Source: a virus. Taken from it: a stretch of 36,797 bases of DNA. Where the stretch lies: positions 1-36,797 of IMG/VR virus record IMGVR_UViG_3300028800_000210; one strand, given 5' to 3'. This document shows, piece by piece, positions 20,667 through 36,797 of the stretch. The first letter of the stretch is position 1. Every line of letters starts with the position of its first letter. A model generated the notes under the pieces. It was not told the origin of the DNA. It did no database searches and worked only from the letters and a program-made list of their open reading frames with translations. The position numbers and the translations under genes are program-made.

Positions 20667-20685
20667 ACGATAGTATTATTACTTG

Positions 20686-20711: not shown

Positions 20712-20715
20712 CAGT

Positions 20716-20748: not shown

Positions 20749-20759
20749 AAAGGAAATCT

Positions 20760-21170: not shown

Positions 21171-21187
21171 AGATAATAGGAGCTGTT

Positions 21188-21565
21188 ATGGCTGATTATA
21201 ATTGTTTTGCCTATCGTAAGCCGGTATATGGCCCTGCCATGCGGTTAATAGCCTCGATTACTAATAGCACTGCCGCTACCGTCACCACAACCTTTGCTCA
21301 TGGTTATGTTGATGGAACTATTGTACGTTTCGATATTCCTCCCGCTTGCGGGATGCAACAAATAGATCAGCAAACAGCTCCTATCTTAGTTACCGGCGAT
21401 ACAACATTTAAGGTGCGCATAGATACCACGCTTTATGCACCATTTTCAGTGCCATCTGGTTTAGGACCATTCATTAATATCTGTGCCCTTTCAGTGCCGA
21501 TCGGGGAAAATAACGATACATTGAAGGCTGCGGTCGTTAACCAATTGCCAACATCAATCTTATAG
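21188..21565 (+). CDS. Small FCCH-like virion protein
   Basis: 125 residues. It is essentially one copy of the module seen in the 19464 product: VTTTFAHGYVDGTIVRFDIP, then TTFKVRIDTTLYAPF and a PxGxN end. AGGAGCTGTT precedes the ATG. It probably adds a beta domain to the head or neck. Function unknown beyond that. Confidence 0.55.
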   Translation: MADYNCFAYRKPVYGPAMRLIASITNSTAATVTTTFAHGYVDGTIVRFDIPPACGMQQIDQQTAPILVTGDTTFKVRIDTTLYAPFSVPSGLGPFINICALSVPIGENNDTLKAAVVNQLPTSIL

Positions 21566-21616
21566 AAAATCATTGGCAATATGCTACGCTGAAATAAAAA
21601 ATCTAAGGAGAGCTTC

Positions 21617-22762
21617 ATGGCAACTTACCCTACCCCCGCACCTGGAACCACCCTACAATCAATACAAACTAAAGTTCGTAGACTTACTTTATCGCCATCT
21701 GAAGCTCAATTGACTACCGATGATTTGAATAACTATATCAATACGTTTGTGGTATATGATTTCCCTGAACATTTAAGAACATTTAATCTACGGACAACCT
21801 ATACGTTTTATACCAACCCATACCAAGATGAATATCCGACCAATACTGCATCTTTTGGTAACGTGATGGTCAATCCATCAATCCAATATAATCCGTTATA
21901 TGATTTTCAAAATAAATATTTAAGTGTGCACCCGCCAATATATATATCGGGTTATCAAGCCGTATATAGCCAATCTCCCGAGCAACTTTTTAATATTTAT
22001 CCAAAGATTAATTTCCAATTAGCAACGGGATTAATGGGTGATGGCGTTACCACAACATTTACCGGTGTTATTAACTCACAGCAATCAATGCTGCCAAATA
22101 ATTTTAATCAGAGGATTGCTTTGCTGCAGCGACAAGTATTGTTTGATACCGCTGATGTTAATCTTGGTGCTTTGACGCTCGTAGACGTACCGGTACTCAA
22201 TACTTCAAATGGTAATACCACGGTTGTGGGGAACCTTTATGATCCTAATTCAGCTGCGTATCAAGCAGCAATAGCAAATCCTCCAACGACGGTATTGGCT
22301 AACAATAATATAAATTACGCCACGGGTGCGTTCACCATTACATTCTCCGCTGCGCCCGGGGCTAATATTCCTATTAATTCTCAAACACAGCCAAATGTAT
22401 TAGCATTGCCTCAAATGGTTCTTTATTATGCTAATAAATTCATCTTACGTCCTGTTCCAGATCAAGCATATAGAGTTAATCTAGAAGTCTATCAAGCGCC
22501 GATACAATTGTTCCAAACAAGCTCTGTGCCTGCTCTTAATGAATATTGGCAGTTCATAGCTTATGGAGCAGCTAAGAAGATATTTGAAGATAGGATGGAT
22601 ACTGATTCGGTGGCACAAATATTGCCTGAGTATCGCAATCAAATGAACCTTTGCTTACGAAGAACTATTGTCCAATACACCAATGAACGTACCGCAACAA
22701 TTTATACCGAACAATCGGGAATGAATGGTGGCTGGGGATGGACAGGAAATAATGCTTCATAA
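21617..22762 (+). CDS. Tail adaptor / head-tail connector (T7 gp11 / P22 gp4-like)
   Basis: 381 residues. The N-terminal IQTKVRRLTLSPSEAQLTTD and NYINTFVVYDFPEHLR match the adaptor pattern (t..dI..yIN..y..FP). The C-terminal third (LNEYWQFIAYGAAKKIFEDR, then RNQMNLCLRRTIVQYTNER) supplies the closing helices. A central insertion of about 150 residues is beta-rich and contains YATGAFTITFSAAPGANIP, a module common in tail proteins. It forms the ring below the portal. Followed by the nozzle-type protein, which matches adaptor-nozzle order. Confidence 0.75.
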   Translation: MATYPTPAPGTTLQSIQTKVRRLTLSPSEAQLTTDDLNNYINTFVVYDFPEHLRTFNLRTTYTFYTNPYQDEYPTNTASFGNVMVNPSIQYNPLYDFQNKYLSVHPPIYISGYQAVYSQSPEQLFNIYPKINFQLATGLMGDGVTTTFTGVINSQQSMLPNNFNQRIALLQRQVLFDTADVNLGALTLVDVPVLNTSNGNTTVVGNLYDPNSAAYQAAIANPPTTVLANNNINYATGAFTITFSAAPGANIPINSQTQPNVLALPQMVLYYANKFILRPVPDQAYRVNLEVYQAPIQLFQTSSVPALNEYWQFIAYGAAKKIFEDRMDTDSVAQILPEYRNQMNLCLRRTIVQYTNERTATIYTEQSGMNGGWGWTGNNAS

Positions 22763-22790
22763 TTAAAAATAATTTCAAGGAGAGTAAACA

Positions 22791-23417
22791 ATGGCATTTT
22801 TACCGTCGATACCACAAGCGACTGATCAGCTTTCAGTATCCCAAGGTAACATACTCAATAATTTTACTATTTTGGGTGCTATAGCAGGCAATTCCAATGC
22901 ATCATCATCCTCTATAAATTCAAGTGCAGGATTCAATTGGGTATATTTGGCTACGCAAGGTTCAATACCTCCGGGAGGTTCATCATTTGCTTCAGGAAAT
23001 GTGGCACTTTATTCTGCCAATAATGCAGCAACAGGTAATAATGAACTTTACATAAACAAAACCACAGGCGCGGGTGTAGTTCAGATTCCTATTACTGCTT
23101 ATTCAAACGGAGTAGTCGGTGCTAATACTGCTGTATCATGGAGTTATGATTCGTCTGGAATGCTTAAGATTGGTGGCCTTGCAACAACTGTTGGAGGGGT
23201 AGTAACTATTACCTTTAATAATACTTCGGCTGGGGGATTGGCGAACTTCCCTGGATTTGGAAGTTTCATAAGTTGGATATTGCCTGTTGTTATTAATAAT
23301 AATGCTTCTACTGCTGAAAGTGTTCGCGTGAAGAGCTTTTCATTAACTACAGCAACATTTGGCCTCGTCAATGGTGCTTCCGATACGTCATTCTTTTGGA
23401 CTGCTTTTGGAATTTAG
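22791..23417 (+). CDS. Small tail/virion protein
   Basis: 208 residues, Ser/Gly/Asn-rich. The N-terminal MAFLPSIPQATDQLSVSQGN and ILNNF are a common opening in tail-associated proteins. The C-terminal half has beta-strand pattern with NNTSAGG-type turns. AAGGAGAGTAAACA precedes the ATG. It lies between the adaptor and nozzle genes, so a tail component is likely, but no specific function can be given. Confidence 0.55.
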   Translation: MAFLPSIPQATDQLSVSQGNILNNFTILGAIAGNSNASSSSINSSAGFNWVYLATQGSIPPGGSSFASGNVALYSANNAATGNNELYINKTTGAGVVQIPITAYSNGVVGANTAVSWSYDSSGMLKIGGLATTVGGVVTITFNNTSAGGLANFPGFGSFISWILPVVINNNASTAESVRVKSFSLTTATFGLVNGASDTSFFWTAFGI

Positions 23418-23425
23418 GAGAAGTA

Positions 23426-25795
23426 ATGCCTTTTGATAGATTCCTGATTTCACCCATAAATACTGGTCTGCAGACTGATGTCAAACCATGGCAAATATTA
23501 GATGATGCTTTTACTTATTTGCAAAATGCTTACGTGTTTCGTGGTCGGGTTAGGAAGAGATTTGGATCTCTATTGATGGGAACTTCTCCATTGCAATCAC
23601 AATTGAGAATTAATTTGGGCAATACTGATGGATCAGGGAACAAAACAATTACTGTTCCTGGATCACAATTTAATGTTGGTCAGCAGTTTTCTGTTGGATC
23701 TCAAATATTTACGGTGATTGTCTTAGGAACTCCCGGGACTATGCTATCAACGGGAACTGCAACAGGAACCTTTAATACTTCAACAGGTCAAGTGGTAATA
23801 ACTGGTGCGGCAATAACAACACCGCTTTATTATTATCCATCATTACCAGTCATGGGAATAACCCAATATCTTATTGGGGCCGTTAACAATCATCCGACAT
23901 ATGCATTTGATACTGAGTTTGCTTATATATTTACAGCAGGAACTGGCTGGTCAAGATCAGGGACTGCTTTATGGCATGGCAGTAATACTAATTATTTTTG
24001 GCCATGTAATTGGACAAGTATTGCCGGAGATTTAATATTATTTGTTTCAAATTTCAATTTCACTCTCGGGGCTTCTGCTCCTGCGGCTACTGATGACCCT
24101 ATTTGGTACAACAATAATGGAACATGGACCGCTATGCTGGGTTCAGGATCAAATGGTATATTCTTCCTGCCGGGAGGGGCTACCGTTGCTACCGGGCCGT
24201 TTGTGCAAACCGCTCGAATTATAGTTGCTTTTAGGAATAGATTAGTTCTTCTTAATACGGTGGAGAACAACAATTCGAGTACAACGGGAACGGGAACTGC
24301 AACACAATATTTTAATAGAGCTCGATTTAGTTTCAATGGATCTCCTCTAGCAGTAAATGCTTGGTATGAACCTAATCAAACTGATGGATCTGGTAATGTG
24401 GCAGCAGGTGGGGGATTTATAGATGCATCCACTGATGAGCAAATAATATCTGCTCAGTTTATTAAAGACCGTCTTATAGTATATTTTGAGCGTTCAACAT
24501 GGGAACTTGCTTATACCGGCAATGAAATATTACCGTTTATTTGGAATAGATTAAATACAGAGCTCGGTAGTCAATCAACATTTAGCACCATTCCTTTTGA
24601 TAAAGAAGTGTTCACTATTGGAAACACTGGTGTTCATGCGTGTAACGGATCAAATGTTGTTCGGATAGATGATAAAATACCAGACGAAATTTTTGAATTT
24701 GAATCAAAGTCCAATGGAAATTTGAGAACTGCTGGCATAAGAGATTATTACAATGAATTGGCTATATGGACATTTGTTTCTGATCTAGAAGAACCAACCC
24801 AAACCTTCCCTAATCAATTGTTGATATACAATTATAAAAATGATTCATGGGCACTCTTTGATGATTGCTTTACTACTTTTGGGTATTTTGAACAACAGCA
24901 AGATACAACATGGGCCCTCACAGTTCCTCAGGCATGGGAACAATCCAATTATTCATGGAATAGTGGCAATATCCAAGCTAATCAAAGACAAATATTAGCA
25001 GGAACTCCAGAAGGATATGTTTTACGTATATCCGATGATTATGCGCGTAATTCACCGGGTATGAATCTTACTAATATTGGGCCGTTACCTATGGGTGGAA
25101 GTCCAGGTCAATTTTCATCTCCAACAGGAATTCTTACTTTAACGATTATTAATCACAATCTCAGCGCGACGCCATCAGAATTTCCCAATGACCAAGACTT
25201 TATCTATTTTGAAAATATTGTCGCAGATATGGCTACTCAAACCTTTATTAACGGAACTATATTTCCTGTTTATTCAGTAGTTGATGCCAATACAATAACC
25301 ATAAATACTTTCGGTGGTTTAACGTCAGGTACTTATTATGGCGGTGGTACTGTTTCGAGAGTTTCCAATATTCAACTGACTACCAAACAATTCAATCCTT
25401 ATACAGATCAAGATAGAAACTTATTTATCCAGAGAGTTGATTTTGGTGTGAGTGCTACAGAATCTATAATTAATGGTACTTCAATAGAGGGAGGACAGAT
25501 TACCGTAGATTATTATCCTTCGGCTTCCAGTGTTTCCATGATAGGAGGAGGCGCACAAACGGGATCAATAATGGGAAATTCTATACTAGAAACATTTCCA
25601 TATCCTACTGTACCGTTAGAATCATATCAGGATTTATTGTGGCATCCTGTATATTTCCAAGCTCAAGGACAATATATTCAATTTTCTTTATATCTATCTG
25701 CTGATCAAATGATCAATCCAACTATTGCTTTTGCTGATTTTGAATTGCAAGGAATGGTATTATATACCAGACCTACAAATGCGAGGTTGTCATAA
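23426..25795 (+). CDS. Tail nozzle protein (T7 gp12 / P22 gp10-like)
   Basis: 789 residues, expected length. The opening INTGLQTDVKPWQILDDAFT and LQNAYVFRGRVRKRFG is the typical start of this family. The body is a beta-propeller-like series of strands with Asn/Thr-rich turns; a FCCH-like insert lies around residues 570-640 (LTLTIINHNLSATPSEF). The ATG at 23426 follows TTTAGGAGAAGTA; an upstream in-frame start lacks a ribosome binding site. It forms the hexameric tube through which DNA passes. Confidence 0.8.
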   Translation: MPFDRFLISPINTGLQTDVKPWQILDDAFTYLQNAYVFRGRVRKRFGSLLMGTSPLQSQLRINLGNTDGSGNKTITVPGSQFNVGQQFSVGSQIFTVIVLGTPGTMLSTGTATGTFNTSTGQVVITGAAITTPLYYYPSLPVMGITQYLIGAVNNHPTYAFDTEFAYIFTAGTGWSRSGTALWHGSNTNYFWPCNWTSIAGDLILFVSNFNFTLGASAPAATDDPIWYNNNGTWTAMLGSGSNGIFFLPGGATVATGPFVQTARIIVAFRNRLVLLNTVENNNSSTTGTGTATQYFNRARFSFNGSPLAVNAWYEPNQTDGSGNVAAGGGFIDASTDEQIISAQFIKDRLIVYFERSTWELAYTGNEILPFIWNRLNTELGSQSTFSTIPFDKEVFTIGNTGVHACNGSNVVRIDDKIPDEIFEFESKSNGNLRTAGIRDYYNELAIWTFVSDLEEPTQTFPNQLLIYNYKNDSWALFDDCFTTFGYFEQQQDTTWALTVPQAWEQSNYSWNSGNIQANQRQILAGTPEGYVLRISDDYARNSPGMNLTNIGPLPMGGSPGQFSSPTGILTLTIINHNLSATPSEFPNDQDFIYFENIVADMATQTFINGTIFPVYSVVDANTITINTFGGLTSGTYYGGGTVSRVSNIQLTTKQFNPYTDQDRNLFIQRVDFGVSATESIINGTSIEGGQITVDYYPSASSVSMIGGGAQTGSIMGNSILETFPYPTVPLESYQDLLWHPVYFQAQGQYIQFSLYLSADQMINPTIAFADFELQGMVLYTRPTNARLS

Positions 25796-26337
25796 TGGCT
25801 TTATCGACTCAATATGGTGCTTATGTTCCTACTAATTTTATATGGGATGTTCAAAAACTTCAGGAAGTAGATATAAAAAGTCCGGATTTTAAAGAACTTC
25901 TCGTGCGTATGTATCAAAATCTTAGCTTAATGGCTACGGTTCTAAATATTAAAGATACGGGTTTATATCAGATTACCGAAGTTGTTAATGGACAAATGTA
26001 TTTTTCGAATCCATCCAATAATTCTTCAACAGTAGCATCGCCAGCTTTAAGAAATGTTTATCGAAAAGTTATCAATTACACAACAGCTTTGCCAAACACA
26101 GGAACTGCAACAATACCACATGGAATTACTTGCACTTCGACAACAACATTCACCAGGATATATGCTACATCATCAGACACATCGGGTAATAATTATATTC
26201 CCATTCCCTATGCCAGCCCTACTGCGGGGAATAATATTGAGTTGCATGTTGATGGTACTAATGTTTATATAATCACGGGATCAAATAGAACAAATTTTAC
26301 GCAGACATATATCATATTAGAATATCTGCAAACTTAA
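25795..26337 (+). CDS. Tail-associated protein
   Basis: 180 residues; overlaps the nozzle stop (TAATG), so translation is coupled. The N-terminal YGAYVPTNFIWDVQKLQEVD and FKELLVRMYQNLSLMATVLN form a helical anchor. The C-terminal 100 residues are beta-rich (GTATIPHGITCTSTTTFTRI), a small sandwich often seen in virion proteins. Its position after the nozzle suggests tail tip or fibre attachment. Confidence 0.6.
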   Translation: MALSTQYGAYVPTNFIWDVQKLQEVDIKSPDFKELLVRMYQNLSLMATVLNIKDTGLYQITEVVNGQMYFSNPSNNSSTVASPALRNVYRKVINYTTALPNTGTATIPHGITCTSTTTFTRIYATSSDTSGNNYIPIPYASPTAGNNIELHVDGTNVYIITGSNRTNFTQTYIILEYLQT

Positions 26338-26347
26338 GGAGAGTATT

Positions 26348-27013
26348 ATGGCATGTAGAGGTGGCGTTTGTTCAATGCGTGGTGGAACTTCATCACAAAT
26401 GCCAATGATGGGAGGAGCTGTTCCTGCTCCTGGAGCTAGAATGTCTAAGGGAGGAGGAAATTTCCTAACTGGTAAAAAAGGCAAATTCGGATCATTTCCT
26501 ATTGTTACGGGGGCGCAATCATCTGCCATGGATGCTTTATTAAGAAGTGGCCTGAGTGGGTTGGAGGGATTGGGTGGCTCTGTCATGGACAGATATAGCA
26601 ATATTTATGAAGGATTTGAACCTATAGAAGCTCTAGCTCGAGAAAACTTCTCTACCCAAACTATTCCTAGCCTTGCTGAAAGATTTACGTCATTAGGTTC
26701 AGGATCCCAGCGTTCTTCGGCTTTTCAGGGAGCATTAGGGGCAGCGGCAGCAAATTTAGAAAAACAATTAGCTGCATTACGTTCTGAATATGGATTTCAA
26801 AACAAAGCATTGAATTGGCAAACAGGATTAGCAGAAAAAGAATTAGCGCAAAGAAGCGCATTAGCTTCTTTAGGATATGGTCTACAACCACAATTTGAAA
26901 ATACATATACACCCGGTAAACCTGGATTGTTACAATCTTTATTCGGTGGAGCAATGTCTGGATTAGGGTCATTAGCGGGTGGTTGGGGATATGGTAAAGG
27001 TCTCAGAGGATAA
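26348..27013 (+). CDS. Internal virion (ejection) protein-like
   Basis: 221 residues, Gly/Ser/Ala-rich. A Gly/Met-rich N terminus (MACRGGVCSMRGGTSSQMP) precedes an amphipathic region (AMDALLRSGLSGLEGLGG), a central helical bundle (AAANLEKQLAALRSEYGFQ), and a Gly-rich end (GAMSGLGSLAGGWGYGKG). Small Gly/Ala proteins with this layout, just before a long coiled-coil protein, are typical of P22-type ejection sets. AAGGAGAGTATT is the ribosome binding site. The exact counterpart is not determined. Confidence 0.65.
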   Translation: MACRGGVCSMRGGTSSQMPMMGGAVPAPGARMSKGGGNFLTGKKGKFGSFPIVTGAQSSAMDALLRSGLSGLEGLGGSVMDRYSNIYEGFEPIEALARENFSTQTIPSLAERFTSLGSGSQRSSAFQGALGAAAANLEKQLAALRSEYGFQNKALNWQTGLAEKELAQRSALASLGYGLQPQFENTYTPGKPGLLQSLFGGAMSGLGSLAGGWGYGKGLRG

Positions 27014-27028
27014 TTAAAAGGAATAACT

Positions 27029-28285
27029 ATGCCATTACATATATTGCCTACTTCAGAGGGATGGGGAGAAACTATCGGTAAAGGTTTGGGGAATGGTATT
27101 TCTGCCGCTCTTCAGGGCCTAGCTGAAGGTAAACTTGCAAAGATGAAGCAAGCACAACAATACGATCAAAATGTACGAGGATTAAAAGCTCTTGGAGTTC
27201 AAAACGCAGAAGATGTCGCTCACCTTCCATCCAATCTTTTAGATATGTTTGTTAAACAAAAGATCGAAGAACCTTCCCATAAAAATTATGCAAATGCTTT
27301 ATCATCTATTTTGGGAGGCGGTCAATATGAAAAAACTCAAACACCAGCATTTTCAGAATCAAAAGAACCGGAATTTGTACGAAAAGAAGTAACGCCATCC
27401 CAAAAGTCTCAACTCAAGAAATATATCGAATCTCCACAGGGAAAAGCTAAATATAGCCCAAAACAGATAAAACAAATTAATGAATATTTAGCCAAACCAT
27501 CTGCTTCTGTTAATGCCAAGAATCCAAAATTTGTTGCCCCACAACCTGTGCCCGAACAAAAGCAAAAAGGCGTTCAACTTGAAGGATTAAATCCTAAACA
27601 AGCTACGGAAATAGCCAAACTTGCCCTAGAACAACAGAAATTAGCTCGGCAGGAGAGATCTGAAGCATTCAAAGAAACTAAGGCCCTGAGGGAAGAGTTG
27701 AGGACCAAAAAGAATTCAGCTAAAGCCAAACTAGAAGACCTTGATCGTATGGAAGAATTGGAAAAGGAAGGAAAACTAGATACGGCCGGCTATTCTGAAT
27801 TCCTCAAAAGATCAGGTCTAGACATACCAGCATTAATGAGCGAAGGCAGTGAAGAATTCAATAAAATAGCTACAAACTTCATCAGAGACGCTAAAGAATA
27901 TTTTGGAGGCCGTATTAGCAACTTCGAAATTGAACAGTTCTTGAAGACGGTACCCTCTTTAAGTCAGTCTCCAGAAGGAAGAAAGAGAGTCATTGCCAAT
28001 CTCAGAAGAATCGAACAGTTAGGCGTGGCTACATACGATGCATATAAAGAAGTACTCAAAGAGAATGGCGGCGTTCCTCCTCTTGATCTGGGAGAGCAAG
28101 TGGACGATAAGCTCGATAAGAAAAGAGAAGCTATAACCAAGCGATTCAAAGAAGATCTGGTTAAACCAGTACCGCAATCGCAAAATCAATTGGTAACGGC
28201 AGTTCAATCAGGCCTAGGATCAATTATAGGTGCCCCCGGATCACTCTTATCTAAAATAGGTGGCGGATTGGGTGCATTGCTTTAA
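27029..28285 (+). CDS. Coiled-coil ejection protein-like
   Basis: 418 residues. The N-terminal WGETIGKGLGNGISAALQGL is an amphipathic Gly-rich helix; the rest is mainly long charged helices, e.g. EIAKLALEQQKLARQERSEA and KAKLEDLDRMEELEKEGKL. The C terminus ends with a glycine-rich stretch (GSLLSKIGGGLGALL). These are expected of internal proteins that leave the capsid and form a channel in the cell envelope. Preceded by AAAAGGAATAACT. Last gene of this late segment. Confidence 0.65.
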   Translation: MPLHILPTSEGWGETIGKGLGNGISAALQGLAEGKLAKMKQAQQYDQNVRGLKALGVQNAEDVAHLPSNLLDMFVKQKIEEPSHKNYANALSSILGGGQYEKTQTPAFSESKEPEFVRKEVTPSQKSQLKKYIESPQGKAKYSPKQIKQINEYLAKPSASVNAKNPKFVAPQPVPEQKQKGVQLEGLNPKQATEIAKLALEQQKLARQERSEAFKETKALREELRTKKNSAKAKLEDLDRMEELEKEGKLDTAGYSEFLKRSGLDIPALMSEGSEEFNKIATNFIRDAKEYFGGRISNFEIEQFLKTVPSLSQSPEGRKRVIANLRRIEQLGVATYDAYKEVLKENGGVPPLDLGEQVDDKLDKKREAITKRFKEDLVKPVPQSQNQLVTAVQSGLGSIIGAPGSLLSKIGGGLGALL

Positions 28286-28294
28286 GCAAAGATG

Positions 28295-28336
28295 GCAGAG
28301 ATATGTTATTTATTAGCATATCTCTGCAATGCTTTT
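28295..28336 (+). terminator. Late-operon terminator, partly inside a convergent gene
   Basis: GCAGAGATATG (28295-28305) pairs perfectly with CATATCTCTGC (28317-28327), then AATGCTTTTATT. It overlaps the 3' end of the leftward 44-residue gene, so it may serve both directions. Confidence 0.7.
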
Positions 28337-28440
28337 ATTCCCCAATAGGGCAAACAAAGTACCGCATAAACATATCTGAAATATAGATATAGAAAAGTTA
28401 TCGGAAAAAAAATAATTGCTAATATTGTTAGCTTGTTCAT
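28306..28440 (-). CDS. 44-residue membrane protein
   Basis: GGAGGTTTT precedes the ATG at 28440. Hydrophobic residues 3-30 (KLTILAIIFFPITFLYLYF) make one long membrane helix; the tail is short and basic. The stop lies inside the terminator stem. Last gene of the leftward island. Function unknown. Confidence 0.5.
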   Translation of the reverse strand: MNKLTILAIIFFPITFLYLYFRYVYAVLCLPYWGIKALQRYANK

Positions 28441-28456
28441 AAAACCTCCATAATTA

Positions 28457-28513
28457 TTAATCTTTAAGTATTAGATATATAAACCATCCCAAGAAAAACA
28501 GTGATGCTAACAT
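28457..28513 (-). CDS. Possible 18-residue membrane micro-ORF
   Basis: AAAGGTGAATAA precedes the ATG, and the frame (MLASLFFLGWFIYLILKD) is nearly all hydrophobic. It fills the gap between two genes of the island. Chance cannot be ruled out at this length. Confidence 0.3.
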   Translation of the reverse strand: MLASLFFLGWFIYLILKD

Positions 28514-28777
28514 TTATTCACCTTTATATTCTTTTCTAAGAATATCTGCCCAAATCAATTTCTTTTCTAATGATCTTTTTTCTTGATCATCTGGATCTCC
28601 AAGTTCTTCACATTCGCAGTCGTTAATGAAATCATCAGGTCCGCTCGGTTGTCCATATCGGCACCCATTATTTGAATGTTCTTGATATTCATCCAATGTA
28701 TCCTGTCCTGTGAGAGGATTTTTTGCAATCCATTGCAAGATCGCATCTCTTGTTTCTTTGGTCATAGCCCTTTTCAT
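28514..28777 (-). CDS. 87-residue acidic protein of the leftward island
   Basis: MKRAMTKETRDAILQWIAKN begins a helical, acidic protein with a Cys-containing centre (NNGCRYG...NDCECEELGD) and a charged C terminus. The ATG at 28777 has AAAAAGGG upstream; the ATG at 28798 is the alternative. It lies just downstream of the iteron array. No family recognised. Confidence 0.55.
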   Translation of the reverse strand: MKRAMTKETRDAILQWIAKNPLTGQDTLDEYQEHSNNGCRYGQPSGPDDFINDCECEELGDPDDQEKRSLEKKLIWADILRKEYKGE

Positions 28778-28817
28778 ATTATTTTCCCTTTTTATCATCT
28801 ACAAGTTATTAAATAGT

Positions 28818-28974
28818 TTGCGCAAAACATTGCGCGAAAGTTGCGCAAATGTTGCGCAATAGTTTTTTATTTCAATCCGATTTATGCAGCAGATGCTGCG
28901 TAATTAAATTGTGCAACAACGGTTGCAGTTTTTCGTAATCATTTCGTAAATGTTTCGCAATCATTTCGTAATCA
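28818..28974. repeat. Two iteron arrays flanking a small palindrome (candidate origin or operator)
   Basis: Array 1: TTGCGCAA or TTGCGCGA at 28818, 28830, 28841 and 28852, i.e. 11-12 bp apart. Array 2: four abutting 11-mers at 28931, 28942, 28953 and 28964 (TTTCGTAATCA, TTTCGTAAATG, TTTCGCAATCA, TTTCGTAATCA). Between them lies GCAGCAGATGCTGC and AT-rich sequence. The 173 bases 28799-28971 carry no gene. Repeats at one per helical turn suggest cooperative protein loading, as at replication origins or partition sites. Confidence 0.65.
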
Positions 28975-29403
28975 AATTAAATTCATATCTCTGAAATAAG
29001 GTTCACATTCGTCTCTGAATTCTTTTATTTTCATTAGACTTTCCAGCAAAGACAATTTCACTGCTTCATTTTCAAATCCAAATGTATAAATAAAATTAAT
29101 CAATAATGGCAGCAGGCTCCATTTATCCCAATTTCTATTGCAATTTCCAACATCAAAACTATAAGTTTCATAAAGGTGTTGAGGATTTTTTTCTTCAGTA
29201 AATTCAGCAACAATTATTTCACTAATTTTTCCTTGTTTGTTGGTATTAAATAAGAATCGAATATCTTTTTTATTGAGGATTTTTTTCTCGGTATATTTTG
29301 TTTCAACATGTATAACTTGAGAAACATTTCCTCCAACGGCGTTCATAAAGCATGTATAACAATATTGATCAAAGTCTCCATCGCATGTATGTTTTCCTGT
29401 CAT
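28972..29403 (-). CDS. 143-residue hypothetical with N-terminal Cys cluster
   Basis: Starts MTGKHTCDGDFDQYCYTCFM, three Cys plus His within 18 residues, possibly a zinc site. The middle is alpha/beta (DIRFLFNTNKQGKISEIIVA), the C terminus helical. The ATG at 29403 follows AAAGGGAAATAAT. Its 3' end runs into the last iteron. No family recognised; host-takeover and regulatory roles are both open. Confidence 0.5.
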   Translation of the reverse strand: MTGKHTCDGDFDQYCYTCFMNAVGGNVSQVIHVETKYTEKKILNKKDIRFLFNTNKQGKISEIIVAEFTEEKNPQHLYETYSFDVGNCNRNWDKWSLLPLLINFIYTFGFENEAVKLSLLESLMKIKEFRDECEPYFRDMNLI

Positions 29404-29404
29404 A

Positions 29405-29581
29405 TTATTTCCCTTTCTTATCATCTTTTATTGCCTTTCCATATACTTTCACTTGCTGAGCCAACAATGCCGCTGTGACTAATTTGAACTGAATAGGCTT
29501 TGTTATCTTAGCCAACGTTATCTTTACTGGGTTTGAAAATGCTGGGGTTGCTAATAGTGTGAGTAATAATAGTTTTTTCAT
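29405..29581 (-). CDS. Small secreted protein of the leftward island
   Basis: 58 residues with a good signal peptide (MKKLLLLTLLATPAFS, cleavage after the Ser). The mature 42 residues are basic. Coupled to the RHH gene by ATGA overlap. AGGATT before the ATG at 29581. Like the 360 and 2912 products it would act in the envelope. Function unknown. Confidence 0.55.
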   Translation of the reverse strand: MKKLLLLTLLATPAFSNPVKITLAKITKPIQFKLVTAALLAQQVKVYGKAIKDDKKGK

Positions 29582-29748
29582 TTGAATCCTAATTCTATTT
29601 CTTCTCTGATCTTGTCCATAATTGCTTCTTCTATCCACCTCTTTATGCTCATATTCTTTTGGGATGCTCTTTTTTTCACCTCGTAATGAATATTAATATT
29701 CAGATCGACAATTAATCTCTTTATTTCATTTCCATGCTTATCTTTCAC
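29578..29748 (-). CDS. Ribbon-helix-helix repressor (Arc/CopG-like)
   Basis: 56 residues from a GTG at 29748 with AAAGGG upstream. The strand KRLIVDLNINIHYEVKKRAS, the turn NMSIKRW and the helix IEEAIMDKIREEIELG give a classic RHH fold. As the first gene behind its own promoter it probably represses it, contacting the repeated ATGTATA sequence there, and may control the island. It may also bind the neighbouring iterons, though this is only suggested by proximity. Confidence 0.7.
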   Translation of the reverse strand: MKDKHGNEIKRLIVDLNINIHYEVKKRASQKNMSIKRWIEEAIMDKIREEIELGFK

Positions 29749-29775
29749 ATTTTCCCTTTCTTTACCTATAAGAAT

Positions 29776-29805
29776 AGTATATGTATAAATGTATATAAAA
29801 GTCAA
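29776..29805 (-). promoter_or_regulatory. Promoter of the leftward island
   Basis: Minus strand: TTGACT (29800-29805), 18-base spacer, TATACT (29776-29781). ATGTATA is repeated within the spacer, a possible operator for the RHH protein. Confidence 0.6.
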
Positions 29806-29881
29806 CATTTACTTGCTTCCTGAATAAAAGAATGCTTCTCTTGGATAAAATAACCTCAATTACCCTTTTAAGGAGATTAGC

Positions 29882-30874
29882 ATGGCTGGTCAACAATATA
29901 GAAAAGTAGCTTATGGACTTTCAGACGCATTAATTTCGGTATTTCCCGCTCCGATATTGGCTAATAGGGCTCCTAATACTACGGACAAGGCGCAAATCGG
30001 TGCTATTTGGATTTTTGTAGCAAATAATGCCCCTTACATCCTTACTTCTATTGTAAATAACTTAGCAACTTGGGAGTTATTGTTAGTTTCCGGAGGTGCA
30101 GGTGTATTTACTACAATCACTAGCACGGGAGCATTTACTCTTGATACAACTACCGCAGCCGCTAATACATTGGGTAATACTACTGGTAATACTTCTATTG
30201 CAATGTCAGTTGGTACCGGTGGATTTACTCTTGATGGCGTTGCTGCATCGAACTATGCTATTGGTGCTTCAACTACTACCGGAACTATATCTATTGGTGG
30301 AACAGCACAAACAGGCAACATTGTTCTAGGTAATTCTACTGCTGCTCAAAGCGTTATTATAGGTGCTGCTGCAGGAGCAGGTTCTTCTAATGTTTCTATT
30401 GCTGCGGGAGTTCCAGGCAATACCGTTCTCATTAATAATGGAACTAATACCGGAGCTAACGTAACTAATATTAATAATGGCCCTGCTGGAGCTAATTCAA
30501 CAGTTAATATTCTTTCTGGAACTGCAACTGCTGGAACTCAAACATTCAACGTACTTGCAACTGGAGCTACAAGAGCCGGTGTAGTTAATATTGGTACCGG
30601 AGCTGCTGCGCATGTGGTTTCTATTGGTTCCAATACTGGTGCGGCTTCTACTTTAATTAACGGTGGAACAGGTGGTGTTGAAGTAAGTGCTCCATTCTTA
30701 AACTTATTCAATGCAGCGAGTACTTATATTTATAATGGTGCTGGCGCTCCTGCAAACGGATTGGCATTACACGTTGGGGATATGTATATAAATACAACTG
30801 CTGCAACTGCTGCAACTCGTTTATACATCGCAACGGGTGTTGGAGCTTGGACTAACGTAACGTGTGCAGCGTAA
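29882..30874 (+). CDS. Fibre protein 1
   Basis: 330 residues. An N-terminal anchor of about 65 residues (ILANRAPNTTDKAQIGAIWI, then NLATWELLLV) resembles that of the 34691 fibre. The remaining 250 residues are a Gly/Thr/Ala/Asn repeat with short strands (e.g. GNTSIAMSVGTGGFTLDGVA), consistent with a beta-helical shaft. The C terminus (YINTTAATAATRLYIATGVG) resembles a small tip. A virion-attached adhesin is the likely role. TTAAGGAGATTAGC precedes the ATG. Confidence 0.65.
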   Translation: MAGQQYRKVAYGLSDALISVFPAPILANRAPNTTDKAQIGAIWIFVANNAPYILTSIVNNLATWELLLVSGGAGVFTTITSTGAFTLDTTTAAANTLGNTTGNTSIAMSVGTGGFTLDGVAASNYAIGASTTTGTISIGGTAQTGNIVLGNSTAAQSVIIGAAAGAGSSNVSIAAGVPGNTVLINNGTNTGANVTNINNGPAGANSTVNILSGTATAGTQTFNVLATGATRAGVVNIGTGAAAHVVSIGSNTGAASTLINGGTGGVEVSAPFLNLFNAASTYIYNGAGAPANGLALHVGDMYINTTAATAATRLYIATGVGAWTNVTCAA

Positions 30875-30894
30875 GGTAGATTTTAACTATGCTA

Positions 30895-30940
30895 AGTGGT
30901 ATAATCCTTCCATGTTTAACTTATATAGAAGGATTATACC
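30895..30940 (+). promoter_or_regulatory. Extended -10 promoter within an inverted repeat that masks the HNH ribosome binding site
   Basis: GGTATAATCCTTC (30898-30910) and GAAGGATTATACC (30928-30940) are a perfect 13-bp inverted repeat. The right arm contains AAGGA, the ribosome binding site of the gene at 30942. The left arm holds TGGTATAAT, an extended -10 whose start point would be near 30912, after the left arm. Confidence 0.7.
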
Positions 30941-30941
30941 T

Positions 30942-31562
30942 ATGCTTCCAGAGAGAAACTGTGAATATTGCCATAAAGAATTTAAGCCAAGAGATAAGAT
31001 ACAAGTCGGAAGATTTTGCTCTTCTTTATGTAACCGAAAAGTTCTTCGAAAAAAACAATTGGAAGATCACCAAATATATCTCTCAAATGAAACAGAAGAT
31101 CAGAAATTGCAGTGGCTTAAAGAGCATTATGAGAAGTTTGTTATCAAGAGAAATGATGATTGCTGGGATTGGTCAGGCAGTAAAGTGCATGGATATGCCA
31201 ACTTTAATCACAGGGGAAAGATTATGAAAGCTCACCGCGCAAGTTGGATAGTTCATAATGGTCTTATACCTTCAGGTATGTTTGTATTGCATAAATGTGA
31301 TGTGAGACATTGCACTAGACCAGACCATTTATTTTTGGGTGATCATACTGATAATATGCGAGATATGGCATGTAAAAAAAGAACTGGCGTATCTTTGGGA
31401 GAAAAAAATAAGGCATCAGTGTTGAAGATGGCGCAAGTCATAAGAATAAAAGAATTATTAAATATGGGAGTTTCGGCGATGAGAATTAGTAAAGATTTTA
31501 AAGTTAATGTTAATACTATTAGAAGCATCAAATATGGTATTACTTGGAAGTGTGCCGCGTAA
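30942..31562 (+). CDS. Free-standing HNH homing endonuclease
   Basis: 206 residues. Domains in order: an N-terminal zinc module (CEYCHKEFKP, GRFCSSLC); a linker; an HNH_3-type nuclease core with MKAHRASWIVHNGLIPSGMF, VLHKCDVRHCTRPDHLFLGD and THTDNMRDM-like end, including the catalytic His and Asn/His ligands; and a C-terminal helix-turn-helix (MGVSAMRISKDFKVNVNTIR). This matches phage homing endonucleases that nick intron-minus or gene-minus relatives. The ATG at 30942 is chosen for the ribosome binding site in the repeat arm. Located between fibre genes and followed by its own terminator. Confidence 0.85.
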   Translation: MLPERNCEYCHKEFKPRDKIQVGRFCSSLCNRKVLRKKQLEDHQIYLSNETEDQKLQWLKEHYEKFVIKRNDDCWDWSGSKVHGYANFNHRGKIMKAHRASWIVHNGLIPSGMFVLHKCDVRHCTRPDHLFLGDHTDNMRDMACKKRTGVSLGEKNKASVLKMAQVIRIKELLNMGVSAMRISKDFKVNVNTIRSIKYGITWKCAA

Positions 31563-31581
31563 AGTACTAATTCCAATTCAG

Positions 31582-31622
31582 TTCTGCCTACAAAATTGCT
31601 AGTATTTGTAGGCAGAATTTTA
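31582..31622 (+). terminator. Terminator of the HNH gene
   Basis: TTCTGCCTACAAA (31582-31594) pairs perfectly with TTTGTAGGCAGAA (31605-31617), followed by TTTTAA. Confidence 0.8.
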
Positions 31623-31648
31623 ACCATCAAATCTTAAGGATTGGACTT

Positions 31649-31894
31649 ATGAATCAAAATCTACTCAGCATATTCTCAGTTGTTGTAAATGAAAAAACTT
31701 TCCAGTTTCTTCCAGCAAATTCAAATTTTGAAGAAGTAGCTGAAGCTCTTGAGTTACTCAAGAAAGGCTTTGAAGAACTTAAAGCTAAAGCATTAGAAGC
31801 TGGAGCTGAAAAAGCAAAAGAATCCTCTTGCGCTGAAGCTTCAGAGGACAAGTCTGAAGATGCTCCTGTTGTTGAAGCTGAGATTGTAAACTAA
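31649..31894 (+). CDS. 81-residue acidic coiled-coil protein
   Basis: The first 30 residues are beta-like (NLLSIFSVVVNEKTFQFLPA), followed by an Ala/Glu/Lys coiled coil (VAEALELLKKGFEELKAKAL) and a very acidic tail ending VVEAEIVN. AAGGATTGGACTT precedes the ATG. First gene of a run of small virion-like proteins before the long fibres; a chaperone or linker for fibres is possible but not shown. Confidence 0.5.
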   Translation: MNQNLLSIFSVVVNEKTFQFLPANSNFEEVAEALELLKKGFEELKAKALEAGAEKAKESSCAEASEDKSEDAPVVEAEIVN

Positions 31895-31913
31895 TAAAAA
31901 TTAAGGAGAGTAT

Positions 31914-32258
31914 ATGGCATATCAAAATAAAGTCTTGCCAATTCCTCTTAGCTCTATCGCTGCCTCGACATTTACTGGATCTTACCAATTACTTTCGGCA
32001 GCAGCTGGTTTGCCAAACCCATGTATAATGCTTCACATAGCTAATAATGCATCGGTTGGAGTTACCGTTAGCTACGACGGAACCAATGATCATGATTTCA
32101 TTATTGCCGGTGATGAACGACAGCTTGAATTTCAAGCGAATGCTTTGCCACAGAATTTTTCTGCATCATTAGCTGCTGGCACAAAAATATATGTTAAGGG
32201 ATCTGCTGGAACGGGGACTGTTTATCTTTCGGGATTCTACTGTCCTACAAATAGTTAA
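31914..32258 (+). CDS. Small beta-sandwich virion protein 1
   Basis: 114 residues. Beta pattern with PCIMLHIANNASVGVTVSYD, FIIAGDERQLEFQ and GTKIYVKGSAGTGTVYLSGF. The next gene has the same layout (LYIVNTTDVLLTFSFDGVND, IYVKGSPSLGTVYLSTF), so the two are tandem paralogues. TTAAGGAGAGTAT precedes the ATG. Probably a fibre base or tip component. Confidence 0.55.
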   Translation: MAYQNKVLPIPLSSIAASTFTGSYQLLSAAAGLPNPCIMLHIANNASVGVTVSYDGTNDHDFIIAGDERQLEFQANALPQNFSASLAAGTKIYVKGSAGTGTVYLSGFYCPTNS

Positions 32259-32266
32259 GGAGCCTT

Positions 32267-32614
32267 ATGTCAGCACAAAATTTAGCGGTTCGTCTTTACC
32301 CCGAAGTTCTAAGATCATTGGCATTTGGGTCAATTTCAGGCGCTTATGCGGGAATTGGAACGGCGCTATTAAACCCAGCGCGTGTTCTTTATATAGTCAA
32401 TACGACTGATGTATTACTTACTTTTAGCTTTGATGGGGTGAATGATCATTTTGTTATACCATCCAACTCTTATTTGCTTTTTGATGTGACCAGCAATATG
32501 ACATTGACTGGAGGCGCTCTTTCTATTGCCCAAGGACAACGAATATACGTTAAGGGATCTCCTTCACTGGGAACGGTATATCTATCAACCTTCTTTGGTA
32601 CAGGAGTAAACTAA
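32267..32614 (+). CDS. Small beta-sandwich virion protein 2
   Basis: 115 residues, paralogue of the 31914 product (shared IYVKGSxxxGTVYLSxF end and NNTTxVxxTxSxDGxND centre). The N terminus differs. TTAAGGAGCCTT precedes the ATG, and its stop overlaps the start of the long fibre, so its level may be tied to the fibre's. Confidence 0.55.
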   Translation: MSAQNLAVRLYPEVLRSLAFGSISGAYAGIGTALLNPARVLYIVNTTDVLLTFSFDGVNDHFVIPSNSYLLFDVTSNMTLTGGALSIAQGQRIYVKGSPSLGTVYLSTFFGTGVN

Positions 32615-34677
32615 TGAGTCAACTGAGCCGCCTGATACCAACCTCAGGCCCTGGATCCGGAACAGTAACCAGTATAACTTTTAACGGTGGACTAACTTCA
32701 ACGCCAGATCCAGTTACTGCAACTGGTACAGCAACCCTGGACCAAACAAATCTTACCGTGCTTGATGGAACCGTTTATTGGGATACCGGAACACAAAGAT
32801 TAAATACGACAGCCACGGGTACTGTAGGGCAATTTCTTCGATCTGGTGGTGCGGGCGTAGCTCCTGCTTATGCTACTTTACCATCAAACGCAATTTCGAT
32901 TACTGGAGATTCTGGCGGTGCACTAACGGGTACTGCATTCACTTTTACGGGCGGGACTACAGGATTGCTGTTTTCAGGAGCAGGAACTACTGAGACCCTA
33001 GTGGGAACCTTAGCGGTAGCCAATGGAGGGACAAATGCTACTTCATTCGCCACAACCGATGGCACAGTCTATTTTGATGGTACTCGATTAGTAACAACTG
33101 CAACAGGAACTGCTGGACAAATTTTAACCTCTAATGGTGCAGGAGTTGCTCCCACCTATCAAACGGGTACTGCAGGGACAATATCGATTACCGGAGATAG
33201 TGGTGGAGCGCTTACGAGCAGCTCATTCACATTTACCGGCGGCACAACTGGACTCACATTCGCTGGCGCGGGATCAACTGAAACGCTCGGAGGAACTCTT
33301 GTAGTATCCAATGGTGGAACTGGCAGAGCAACCCTCACTAGCCACGGCGTTCTTGTAGGAGCTGGCACATCTGCAATTACTCAATTAGCAGTAGGAACCA
33401 CAGGCCAAGTACTGACTGGAGTAACTGGCGCTGATCCAGTATTTGCGGCACCAGCTGCAAGCTCAATAAGTATTACTGGAAACACTGGCGGAGCTTTAAC
33501 TGGCAATGCATTCACTTTTACTGGTGGTACTACGGGATTATCGTTTGGTGGATCTGGAACAACTGAAACACTCAGCGGAACATTGGTTGTGGCCAATGGA
33601 GGAACGAATGCCACGAGCTTTGCTACTACCGACGGAACAATAATATTTGATGGAACCCGATTAGTTACGCTTGCCTCAACAGGAACTACTGGCCAAGCAC
33701 TTGTATCTGCTGGAGCTGGCGTTGCTCCTGCCTATGGAGTCCTTCCTATTGCTGGAGGTGGAACAAATGCCACTTCAATGGCCAATACGGATGGGGTTGT
33801 ATATTATGATGGCACTCGCTTAGTAACTACCGCAGTAGGCACTGCTACACAAGTATTGACCTCAAATGGTGCTGGTGTTGCACCTACATTCCAGGCAGCT
33901 GGTGGATCAGGAGTCACTTCGATAACGGGTAATACAGGCGGAGCATTGACTGGTGCACTTACCTTTACCGGTGGTACAACAGGCCTTTCCTTTGGTGGTT
34001 CTGGAACCACTCAAACACTTACCTTTGCGGGTATTACTGCCAATGGTGGGACGGTATCTTTAGCTACTGATGCAACCACTTCTACTATAAATATAGGAAC
34101 TGGAGCAGGTGCTAAGACTTCAACTTTTGGTAGTACTAATACCACTTCTACTACGGTGATAAGTTCTGGTTCTGGTAATATAGCTATGAATACTGGATTA
34201 ACCGTTGATAGTACCGGAAGAAATTACAATACAAAACAACCTGCATTTTTGGCAACTCTTAATTCTTCTACTTCAAATAATGTTACCGGTGATGGAACTA
34301 CATATACTATCGTATTTGCTAATACTACTTTTGACCAAGGAAGCAATTTTAATACTGGAACGGGAGTTTTTACTGCACCCATCACGGGAAAATATATGTT
34401 CAATACTAATGTAGTTTTAGCTAACGTTGTCGCACAAACTACAGGTCAATGCCAGATAGTAACTACCGGACAAACATTCGAAGGTCAATATAATAATCCT
34501 TCTTTAGATTATGCTCCGGGAAATTTCTTTAGCATGCAAAACACAGTGTTTGCTACCATGACTGCAGGAGATACCGCAAAAATTAATATTATTCTTTCTG
34601 GAAGTACTAAAACAGTTGGAGTATTAGGAGGTGCCGGCGGCACATATACGAGATTTAGTGGATTCTTAGTTTGTTAA
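32614..34677 (+). CDS. Long fibre with C1q-like tip
   Basis: 687 residues. The shaft consists of imperfect units of about 95-100 residues, each with SITGDSGGALTG, FTFTGGTTGLxFxGxGTTET, VANGGTNATSFATTDGT and GQxLTSNGAGVAP elements; copies begin near nucleotides 32895, 33181 and 33466, with a longer unit before that near 33913. The last 145 residues (PAFLATLNSSTSNNVTGDGT, FNTGTGVFTAPITGKYMFN) match a C1q/TNF-type trimeric head. Likely trimeric receptor-binding protein. It overlaps the 32267 gene. Confidence 0.75.
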   Translation: MSQLSRLIPTSGPGSGTVTSITFNGGLTSTPDPVTATGTATLDQTNLTVLDGTVYWDTGTQRLNTTATGTVGQFLRSGGAGVAPAYATLPSNAISITGDSGGALTGTAFTFTGGTTGLLFSGAGTTETLVGTLAVANGGTNATSFATTDGTVYFDGTRLVTTATGTAGQILTSNGAGVAPTYQTGTAGTISITGDSGGALTSSSFTFTGGTTGLTFAGAGSTETLGGTLVVSNGGTGRATLTSHGVLVGAGTSAITQLAVGTTGQVLTGVTGADPVFAAPAASSISITGNTGGALTGNAFTFTGGTTGLSFGGSGTTETLSGTLVVANGGTNATSFATTDGTIIFDGTRLVTLASTGTTGQALVSAGAGVAPAYGVLPIAGGGTNATSMANTDGVVYYDGTRLVTTAVGTATQVLTSNGAGVAPTFQAAGGSGVTSITGNTGGALTGALTFTGGTTGLSFGGSGTTQTLTFAGITANGGTVSLATDATTSTINIGTGAGAKTSTFGSTNTTSTTVISSGSGNIAMNTGLTVDSTGRNYNTKQPAFLATLNSSTSNNVTGDGTTYTIVFANTTFDQGSNFNTGTGVFTAPITGKYMFNTNVVLANVVAQTTGQCQIVTTGQTFEGQYNNPSLDYAPGNFFSMQNTVFATMTAGDTAKINIILSGSTKTVGVLGGAGGTYTRFSGFLVC

Positions 34678-34690
34678 AAAAGGAGCTTAA

Positions 34691-35866
34691 ATGTCATTCA
34701 ATATAAATCAAAGACTCAATGGACTTGACCCCCTTGCATATGCAGGAGTTAACCCGGTTCAACCACCTGATTTTGTCACGAAACCAAGACCACCTAATTC
34801 TACTGATTCAAAGAACTTTTATCTTGGAACATTATGGCTTGATACGAGCAATTATCCAACTATAGCACCAACTAACCAAAATATATGGATGCTTGTGGCT
34901 CTCATTGGTAATGCTGCAACCTGGGTCAATTTAGCTGCATCCCCTATAACCTTAACCGGTAATAGTGGGGGCGCTGTTTCTCCGTTGGGTGGAAATATCA
35001 ATGTGGTGGGGGACGGTACCACTATTAACATTGTGGGTAACCCAGGAACTCACACGCTAACAGCTTCTACTGCAGGTTCTGTTGCTACGAGCTATATAAC
35101 TAATCCTGTAACAGGAACTGCGATCCCAGCATCCGGCGTACTTACATTTGCCGGAGCAGGCGGAATAGTTGTTTCAGCGGCTGGATCAACAGTAACTATA
35201 ACTGGAGGTAGTGGAACAGTAACGGGATTATTAACCGACGATGGACATACGGTAACACCTACAGCGGGCGTTATTCAATTGCATGGTGGCAATAATATAA
35301 CCACATCGGGTACTGTTGGGCCTAATACTGCAACCGTTTCTGTTTCCGGCACAACAAATCACACGGTACAACTTGGTAATTCAACAGGAAGCTTGAATTC
35401 ATTAGCTAATGGGACAACTGGACAAGTATTGACAGCAGTAACCGGATCCGATCCGATATGGAATAGTTTTAATAAAATTGCATGGACTCCTACGTTATCT
35501 TTCGGGGGTTCATCAACTGGTATAGTGTATACTCTGCAGGAAGGATTCTATCAAATTCTAGGCAATATAGTTTTCTTTCAGGGGGGTATAGGAATATCAA
35601 GTAAAGGAAGTTCAACAGGAATTGCTCGTATAAGTGGATTGCCATTTGCATCATCAGGAATAGATACTATTCAATTTGGCCCCTTTGCTTCAGGTGGTCA
35701 AGTATTTACTGCAGGATATACCTATGCTTGGTGCTTCAATGAGATAAGTACAACTAACCTGTTTATCAATCAGGGTGGTACTAATCTTCCTGGTGTGGCT
35801 ATGACAGATACTAATTTTGTTAATAACTGTGCCTTAGACGTTTCAGGGTTTTATTTCACCGTTTAG
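34691..35866 (+). CDS. Fibre protein 2 with distinct tip
   Basis: 391 residues. An N-terminal anchor (FVTKPRPPNSTDSKNFYLGT, LIGNAATWVNLA) resembles that of the 29882 fibre. A Thr/Gly/Val shaft follows with TGNSGGAVSPLGGNINVVGD and TTGQVLTAVTGSDPIW. The C-terminal 130 residues (IAWTPTLSFGGSSTGIVYTL, YQILGNIVFFQGGIGIS) form a different beta tip from the C1q fibre. AAAAAGGAGCTTAA precedes the ATG. Several fibres sharing an anchor suggest multiple host receptors. Confidence 0.7.
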   Translation: MSFNINQRLNGLDPLAYAGVNPVQPPDFVTKPRPPNSTDSKNFYLGTLWLDTSNYPTIAPTNQNIWMLVALIGNAATWVNLAASPITLTGNSGGAVSPLGGNINVVGDGTTINIVGNPGTHTLTASTAGSVATSYITNPVTGTAIPASGVLTFAGAGGIVVSAAGSTVTITGGSGTVTGLLTDDGHTVTPTAGVIQLHGGNNITTSGTVGPNTATVSVSGTTNHTVQLGNSTGSLNSLANGTTGQVLTAVTGSDPIWNSFNKIAWTPTLSFGGSSTGIVYTLQEGFYQILGNIVFFQGGIGISSKGSSTGIARISGLPFASSGIDTIQFGPFASGGQVFTAGYTYAWCFNEISTTNLFINQGGTNLPGVAMTDTNFVNNCALDVSGFYFTV

Positions 35867-35875
35867 GGATTACCT

Positions 35876-36067
35876 ATGTACAAACCAAATAAATTAGATC
35901 GAAATATAGTTACTTTTGCTGAACTTTGTGATGCTCTTGATAAAGCCAATGAAGAATTGGTTAAACATTGCCAGCTGATTGCAGCATTGCAAGCAGTATC
36001 AATTGAACAATGCAATAGAATTCGATTACTTGAAGAAGAGATATTTAAGAAGAAATGCAGTAATTGA
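35876..36067 (+). CDS. 63-residue coiled-coil protein
   Basis: Starts MYKPNKLDRNIVTFAELCDA; the middle is a heptad-like coiled coil (ANEELVKHCQLIAALQAVS, then QCNRIRLLEEEIFKKK). The last gene of the rightward late region. Fibre chaperone or small virion link are possible by position. No family recognised. Confidence 0.5.
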   Translation: MYKPNKLDRNIVTFAELCDALDKANEELVKHCQLIAALQAVSIEQCNRIRLLEEEIFKKKCSN

Positions 36068-36089
36068 ACAACCTGTTATTTATGAATTG

Positions 36090-36116
36090 GCCCCCTACTT
36101 ATCACAGGGGGCTTTT
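36090..36116 (+). terminator. Terminator at the end of the late region
   Basis: GCCCCCT (36090-36096) pairs with AGGGGGC (36106-36112), followed by TTTT. It lies between convergent genes. Confidence 0.75.
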
Positions 36117-36134
36117 GAATTGATTATTTCTTAT

Positions 36135-36485
36135 TCAATCTTCCTCGAGATCTTCAAAGTAAATACCATACCAGTTTGGTTTTAATGGTTTCGTCTTGAA
36201 GGCCCATCCTTCACTTCCATCATATTCTACTCGTTCTAACCACCAATCTTTTCCTACAATACATAAATCATTATTTATAGCCTGTAATCCAAAGCCACTA
36301 TCATACCAACAGTCTTTAGCCAGATTCTTGAAATCTTCCCAGTTTATGTATTTCTTCTCATCAATACATACAAACTCAATGTCTGACTCATCAATGCACC
36401 TAGATTTCAAAGCTTCTAACGTCTCATCAAGCAAATTATCGTTATGAAGATTATGTTTCTCTTTTGATATCTTACTTTCCATCAT
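36135..36485 (-). CDS. 116-residue hypothetical protein
   Basis: Acidic and Trp-rich: helical N terminus (LHNDNLLDETLEALKSRC), then alpha/beta with KDCWYDSGFGLQAINNDL and VGKDWWLERVEYDGSEGW. No family recognised. Transcribed leftward, convergent with the fibre genes. A second ATG at 36482 is equally good; the ribosome binding site is weak. If the genome is circular it belongs to the end of the early block. Confidence 0.55.
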   Translation of the reverse strand: MMESKISKEKHNLHNDNLLDETLEALKSRCIDESDIEFVCIDEKKYINWEDFKNLAKDCWYDSGFGLQAINNDLCIVGKDWWLERVEYDGSEGWAFKTKPLKPNWYGIYFEDLEED

Positions 36486-36499
36486 AATTTATTCTTTCA

Positions 36500-36763
36500 T
36501 TATTTATCACAGGGGGTCTTTTCCATCAGCTTATATAAAAGTAATGCGCTTAGAATAAACGTAGAACTTAATCCAAATCCCATCCATAATTTTGCTGAAT
36601 CAGCGGTGAAATAAAAACCCTTTTCTCCGCTCAATGTATTAGCAGCATTAAAAGCAGTATATTCTGCACCTGAATGGAATCCCATATGAAACACAAACCA
36701 TTCTCTTTCTCTATCAGCTGATATATAGGAACTTAAAAGAAGTAAAAGAATATATTTTTTCAT
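36500..36763 (-). CDS. Secreted/membrane protein
   Basis: 87 residues with a signal peptide (MKKYILLLLLSSYISA), a soluble aromatic stretch (REWFVFHMGFHSGAEYTAFN) and a C-terminal membrane helix (LWMGFGLSSTFILSALLLY). A type I membrane layout for envelope location. AGGATT precedes the ATG. It continues the pattern of small envelope proteins seen at 66-3217. Confidence 0.55.
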   Translation of the reverse strand: MKKYILLLLLSSYISADREREWFVFHMGFHSGAEYTAFNAANTLSGEKGFYFTADSAKLWMGFGLSSTFILSALLLYKLMEKTPCDK

Positions 36764-36797
36764 ATAATCCTGTTATGTTATTGCCGTTTGTACAATT

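Follow-up and report, generated by a model that had tools for sequence, protein, structure and literature searches.

A predicted promoter-in-hairpin switch at an inserted HNH endonuclease gene of a podovirus-like soil phage

The window analysed here, an entire 36,797-base virus record from a soil phage that has a P22-type portal and is known from metagenomic sequence only, contains a candidate expression switch for an HNH endonuclease gene that appears to have been inserted between a fibre-like gene and a terminator. In the reading that we favor, to which we assign a probability of about 0.78, RNA that reads through from the fibre-like gene would be closed to translation of the endonuclease, and RNA started at an internal promoter would be open. 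What we computed are the sequence features, the folds, the covariation, the layout in relatives, the gene-less sites and the enrichment among endonuclease starts; promoter use, the exact start, the translational block, timing and homing activity are what we infer. Judged by its sequence the genome is podovirus-like, with a P22-type portal that is only about 24% identical to those of the nearest named phages.

The endonuclease gene is placed between the fibre-like gene (stop codon at 30872–30874) and a small gene at 31649, and its naming as an HNH endonuclease in a preliminary description is borne out by an HNH_3 domain (Pfam E 4.4e-12) and by matches to PHROG HNH families; it is probably of the homing type. 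The name 'fibre gene' for the upstream reading frame is plausible, but that part of the description gains no family assignment, there being no match in Pfam or PHROG families. Longer HNH reading frames starting at 30912 or 30864 were considered and rejected: the upstream reading frame is not kept in the orthologues, and the start at 30912 lacks a fitting Shine-Dalgarno (SD) sequence. No relative was found in the genome contigs where one was sought, and an Rfam scan of the window returned nothing. The coordinates of the features discussed are collected in Table 1.

Table 1. Features of the endonuclease region, in window coordinates.
Feature	Position	Strand	Basis or remark
Fibre-like structural gene, 330 aa	29882..30874	+	ORF; relatives L043-L053
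17-nt direct repeat, left copy, fibre 3' end	30862..30878	+	15/17 vs 31550-31566
Weak -35-like hexamer TAGATT, 17 nt ahead of -10	30877..30882	+	Sequence
Cassette (promoter, hairpin, HNH), approximate	30885..31570	+	Edges inferred from HNH-less relative L044
Extended -10 element TGGTATAAT	30897..30905	+	Sequence
Hairpin 5' arm	30898..30910	+	Sequence GGTATAATCCTTC
CCTTCC discriminator (about -6 to -1), holds anti-SD	30906..30911	+	Sequence
Predicted transcription start A, 7 nt past -10	30912	+	Inferred from -10 spacing
Hairpin 3' arm	30928..30940	+	Sequence GAAGGATTATACC
Shine-Dalgarno AAGGA, buried in 3' arm	30929..30933	+	
Free-standing HNH_3 endonuclease, 206 aa	30942..31562	+	Pfam, PHROG HNH families; relatives
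17-nt direct repeat, right copy, HNH end and stop	31550..31566	+	15/17 vs 30862-30878
Terminator-like hairpin after HNH	31582..31617	+	Perfect 13-bp arms then TTTT

RNA arriving from the fibre-like gene would carry the anti-SD CCTTC, which corresponds to promoter positions of about −6 to −1, and would fold so that a 13-bp hairpin hides the SD, leaving the endonuclease untranslated. RNA polymerase acting at the extended −10 in the 5′ arm would start at about A30912, past the anti-SD, and the short mRNA so produced could not form the hairpin and would be translated. How much endonuclease is made would then depend on the gene's own promoter and be shielded from the strong transcription of structural genes.

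The inverted repeat (30898–30910 / 30928–30940) is perfect over 13 bp, as had been stated, and AAGGA lies entirely inside its right arm, 8 nt ahead of the ATG at 30942. In Markov sequences, 36.8 kb would yield on average 0.025 perfect 13-bp inverted repeats whose arms are 3–40 nt apart; two are present in the window, the second forming the terminator-like hairpin just downstream of the HNH gene. The leader RNA folds with −21.8 kcal/mol (z = −4.1), and in RNA from 30912 on, from which the left arm is absent, the fold drops to −3.8. Opening the SD is computed to cost 12.5 kcal/mol on read-through RNA (taken from −150) versus 2.9 on RNA started at 30912, in agreement with the earlier proposal that AAGGA is hidden on the long transcript; for 300 other genes of the phage group the mean cost is 2.5, with a 99th percentile of 8.6. 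The stem starts 23 nt downstream of the fibre stop, so a terminating ribosome should not keep it open. A 15-nt near-repeat, GATTTTAACTATGCT / GATTATACCTATGCT (30879–30893 / 30932–30946), flanks the hairpin on both sides, and its left copy holds an out-of-frame ATG.

A promoter element does lie in the left arm, as the preliminary description had it, the perfect arm starting right after the first T (30897) of TGGTATAAT. The core TGNTATAAT occurs once in the record, inside this element, against 3.4 occurrences expected. On sequence grounds the candidate promoter is a sigma-70-type extended −10, with TATAAT and TG instead of the T4-type late promoter motif (TATAAATA). The −35-like hexamer is identical in L002, and sits in or at the old flank. 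The predicted start, A30912, is just beyond the anti-SD, and at the level of the sequence the internal promoter is positioned so that its predicted transcripts would miss the 5′ arm.

Orthologous HNH genes (L001, L002–L004 and L005/L006, 67–69% identical; L008, 37%) likewise sit after fibre-like genes, and the same layout, with the −10 in the 5′ arm followed by the predicted +1, the loop, and the SD in or at the 3′ arm, is found in all orthologue groups. The stems differ in sequence (TATAATCCTCCT, TGGTATCCTTTG, TATAATGGTC and TTGTTATATAG). With the −10 as anchor, a run of 11 positions is paired throughout the five groups (the window included), one position in L001 excepted; both sides have changed at 7 of the 11 stem pairs, in a table that was built on each sequence's own predicted fold and is biased towards pairing, and among groups that are not independent. 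Because paired bases co-vary and G-U pairs are present, RNA pairing is favored over a DNA operator. The individual signals vary in quality: the L001 hairpin is weak (z −0.7; SD opening 2.6 vs 0.8 kcal/mol), and the −10 of L005 is poor (TATCCT).

The gene is present after the fibre-like gene in the window, L001–L006 and L008, and absent from that place in L043–L049, L051 and L053; in several of the HNH-less relatives the small gene comes next after the fibre stop, with a terminator-like hairpin directly behind the stop. Compared with L044, the left flank of the window agrees as far as GATTTT (30884), and on the right the match resumes at about TCCAATTCA (31571), which places the hairpin and the HNH gene together with the extended −10 inside the inserted segment; the HNH-less relatives thus suggest that promoter, hairpin and gene are all parts of the insert, with the weak −35 in the old flank outside it. 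The exact right edge is uncertain, since one copy of a 17-nt imperfect direct repeat lies at the HNH end; this repeat is seen in the window record only, and 3 of 2000 shuffles gave one equally good. The hairpin at 31582–31617 is the probable end of a fibre-HNH transcript, and HNH-less relatives carry a hairpin at the corresponding place; as it lies downstream of the HNH gene, fibre transcripts should cross that gene. In the HNH-less L053 a terminator-like hairpin at 4748–4810 (GGGGTATAA...TTATACCCC), close to the equivalent position, contains TATAAT. A hairpin of this type is a possible source of the promoter-hairpin, part of whose stem may come from an older hairpin.

Other explanations of the same sequences have to be weighed. 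The inverted repeat could be a DNA operator bound by a dimeric protein that represses the overlapping promoter and might be the endonuclease itself, the RNA hairpin being incidental. The repeat does overlap the −10, and I-TevI is reported to be an autorepressor that binds an operator overlapping its late promoter (PMC2988022); yet the stem sequence differs between orthologues whose proteins are 67–69% identical, the G-U pairs (L002, L005, L001 and L008) preserve pairing in RNA but break symmetry in DNA, the SD is in the arm every time, and loop lengths vary, and we regard an operator as quite improbable. It is very improbable that the hairpin chiefly terminates the fibre mRNA or stabilises its 3′ end, with the overlap with the SD and −10 secondary: the stem is followed by TATGCTTCC, with no T-run, it is absent from the terminator scan list, and there is already a terminator-like hairpin downstream of the HNH gene, even though the short distance to the fibre stop speaks for such a role, as do the terminator-like hairpins that HNH-less relatives have behind the fibre gene.

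The hairpin might also lower HNH translation with no promoter being involved, TATAAT simply complementing the AT-rich stretch that separates the SD from the start codon, and the endonuclease being made at a low level from the fibre mRNA. The complement of GGATTATA is necessarily TATAATCC, and the −35 of the window is weak. We nonetheless consider this unlikely, given the TG ahead of the −10 in the window, L002 and L005, the A predicted at +1 in all five groups, the single occurrence of TGNTATAAT in the record, and the fuller promoters TTGTCA-17-TATAGT in L008 and TTGACA-17-TATAAT in the LAGLIDADG genes L133 and L149 described below. A promoter-in-hairpin switch, as the preliminary description had proposed, is supported by the folding energies, the covariation, the layout kept in orthologues and an enrichment at homing-endonuclease starts.

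This enrichment was assessed with a layout rule that asks for an SD in a hairpin, a −10 in the 5′ arm of that hairpin, and a predicted start past the partners of the SD; genes were called simply in the fetched loci, and loci found by hairpin pattern were excluded from the counts. Under the strict rule the layout is present at 6 of 34 homing-endonuclease starts and at 8 of 1,010 others (P 2e-6), and under the broad rule at 12 of 45 versus 25 of 1,055 (P 4e-9; 1,100 SD-bearing starts), with rules that were tuned after the first examples had been seen and P values that are optimistic because the five HNH orthologue groups are one lineage. At least one start counted among the others, L253:1596, has a LAGLIDADG-like motif. 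L081 and L126 pass the broad rule and were set aside as good examples, with SD opening costs on the long RNA of 1.3 and 2.3 kcal/mol.

The strongest independent cases are the LAGLIDADG genes of L133 and L149, in both of which Pfam confirms LAGLIDADG_1, and the HNH genes of L023 and MW202691, the latter a named complete P22-like genome with the HNH gene after the coat gene. The SD opening costs (long versus short RNA) are 9.3 vs 1.3 kcal/mol for L133, 12.2 vs 0.9 for L149, 9.7 vs 3.6 for L023 and 10.9 vs 2.8 for MW202691. Among the relatives of L133, shorter versions are found in L252, L253, L254 and L256, and none in L255. In many layout cases the anti-SD is in the six bases between the −10 and +1; in MW202691, L023 and L008 it is upstream of the −10. 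HNH homologues at other sites (L138–L145, and L297–L302 in named phages) are mostly without the layout, MW202691 being one that has it. Whether an anti-SD placed in the short −10-to-start discriminator is a recurrent and portable means of silencing on read-through mRNA, with several independent origins in unrelated endonuclease families (HNH_3 and LAGLIDADG here, GIY-YIG in T4) and carried along with the inserting gene, is a proposition to which we give even odds.

A scan of viral contigs with the pattern TATAATCCTYC...GRAGGATTA yielded 33 stretches, most of them without a gene start after the hairpin; those that stand out with a plausible start are L002-type HNH genes, the LAGLIDADG gene of L149, and a phage gene of 69 aa in L168. 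This last (L168:6543–6779), which is of unknown function and has no Pfam match, shows the same layout, with a TTTACA-17-TATAATCCTCC hairpin and a GGAGG SD. A promoter-hairpin layout is also seen at a non-endonuclease gene, the terminase-like gene at L122:7640, where a perfect 12-bp stem (GTTCACACGCTA / TAGCGTGTGAAC) encloses TATAAT and the SD.

We also note that the major head protein (MCP) gene of the window is split, in that 17282–17572 and 18815–19453 both match PHROG 1357, at the successive profile positions 22–116 and 133–300. The gap between them (17573–18814) contains a pair of similar stretches that look like intron cores (near 17663 and near 18325) and possibly also a very small middle exon at about 18262–18293 (...TLQNQDP); an Rfam search of the gap found no group I intron. 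Near it, on the minus strand at 18118–18146, TTGACT-17-TATTAT with a TG before the second hexamer is one of four sites at 10 of 12, with the top score in 18000–36797. In L133 and L252–L257 the corresponding gap, upstream of an MCP-like gene, holds LAGLIDADG endonuclease genes, and most of these have a −10 and an SD hairpin of their own.

Hairpins that sequester the ribosome binding site (RBS) have been reported for I-TevI, I-TevII, I-TevIII and segB of T4 and for mobE of Aeh1, with promoters placed so that the genes' own transcripts escape the hairpin (PMC2988022). The late-promoter-like sequence of I-TevI also forms the 5′ arm (PMC2988022), the late promoter of T4 gene e is reported to be in the region encoding the 5′ strand of an inhibitory structure (PMC3014915), and soc is listed as RBS-sequestered; the preliminary description had taken the use of the promoter as a repeat arm to be a condensed version of the T4 logic, and this is not supported, as the promoter is already in the 5′ arm in I-TevI and gene e. 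The likeness to I-TevI that it drew is apt: in our fold of I-TevI, TAATAAATACTTCT pairs with AGAGGTATTTAT, SD opening costs 11.0 vs 4.2 kcal/mol, and the order of elements is the same, with the anti-SD directly past a −10-like element and the SD in the 3′ arm. Control folds of T4 mobE and I-TevIII gave no clear SD hairpin at the settings used. Long transcripts are closed and own transcripts open in I-TevI, as they would be in the switch proposed here; I-TevI, however, is a GIY-YIG enzyme of the td group I intron in a myovirus and has a phage late promoter, whereas the window has a free-standing HNH_3 gene with a sigma-70-type extended −10 in a podovirus-like phage. Aeh1 mobE and T4 segB resemble the window, by their published description (PMC2988022), in being free-standing endonucleases with an RBS sequestered by RNA, and differ from it in phage group, insertion site and promoter type. 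The T4 e (lysozyme) gene resembles the window in having its promoter within the sequence for the 5′ strand of an inhibitory structure, but e and soc, unlike the HNH gene, are ordinary phage genes with T4 late promoters. IS10 and IS50 are mobile elements that silence translation on transcripts entering from outside; they encode transposases and have element ends, whereas the window holds an HNH gene instead, and terminal inverted repeats were not found.

The recurrence of the layout suggests that phage homing endonucleases commonly need to be kept silent on read-through transcripts, and the rule of −10, anti-SD, start, loop and SD is simple enough for genome searches. With a sigma-70-like promoter and a structural gene upstream, timing in the window may reverse that of T4, in that host polymerase, if it reads the promoter, would turn the gene on early or constantly, and the late transcripts would be the silenced ones. 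By its sequence the window switch would work like the T4 cases without being part of the T4 regulon; what is new with respect to T4 is the sigma-70-type promoter, the presence in P22-portal podoviruses, and the recurrence across endonuclease families, a T4-type layout now being seen in podovirus-like phages, where its promoter is of host type, and in two more endonuclease families.
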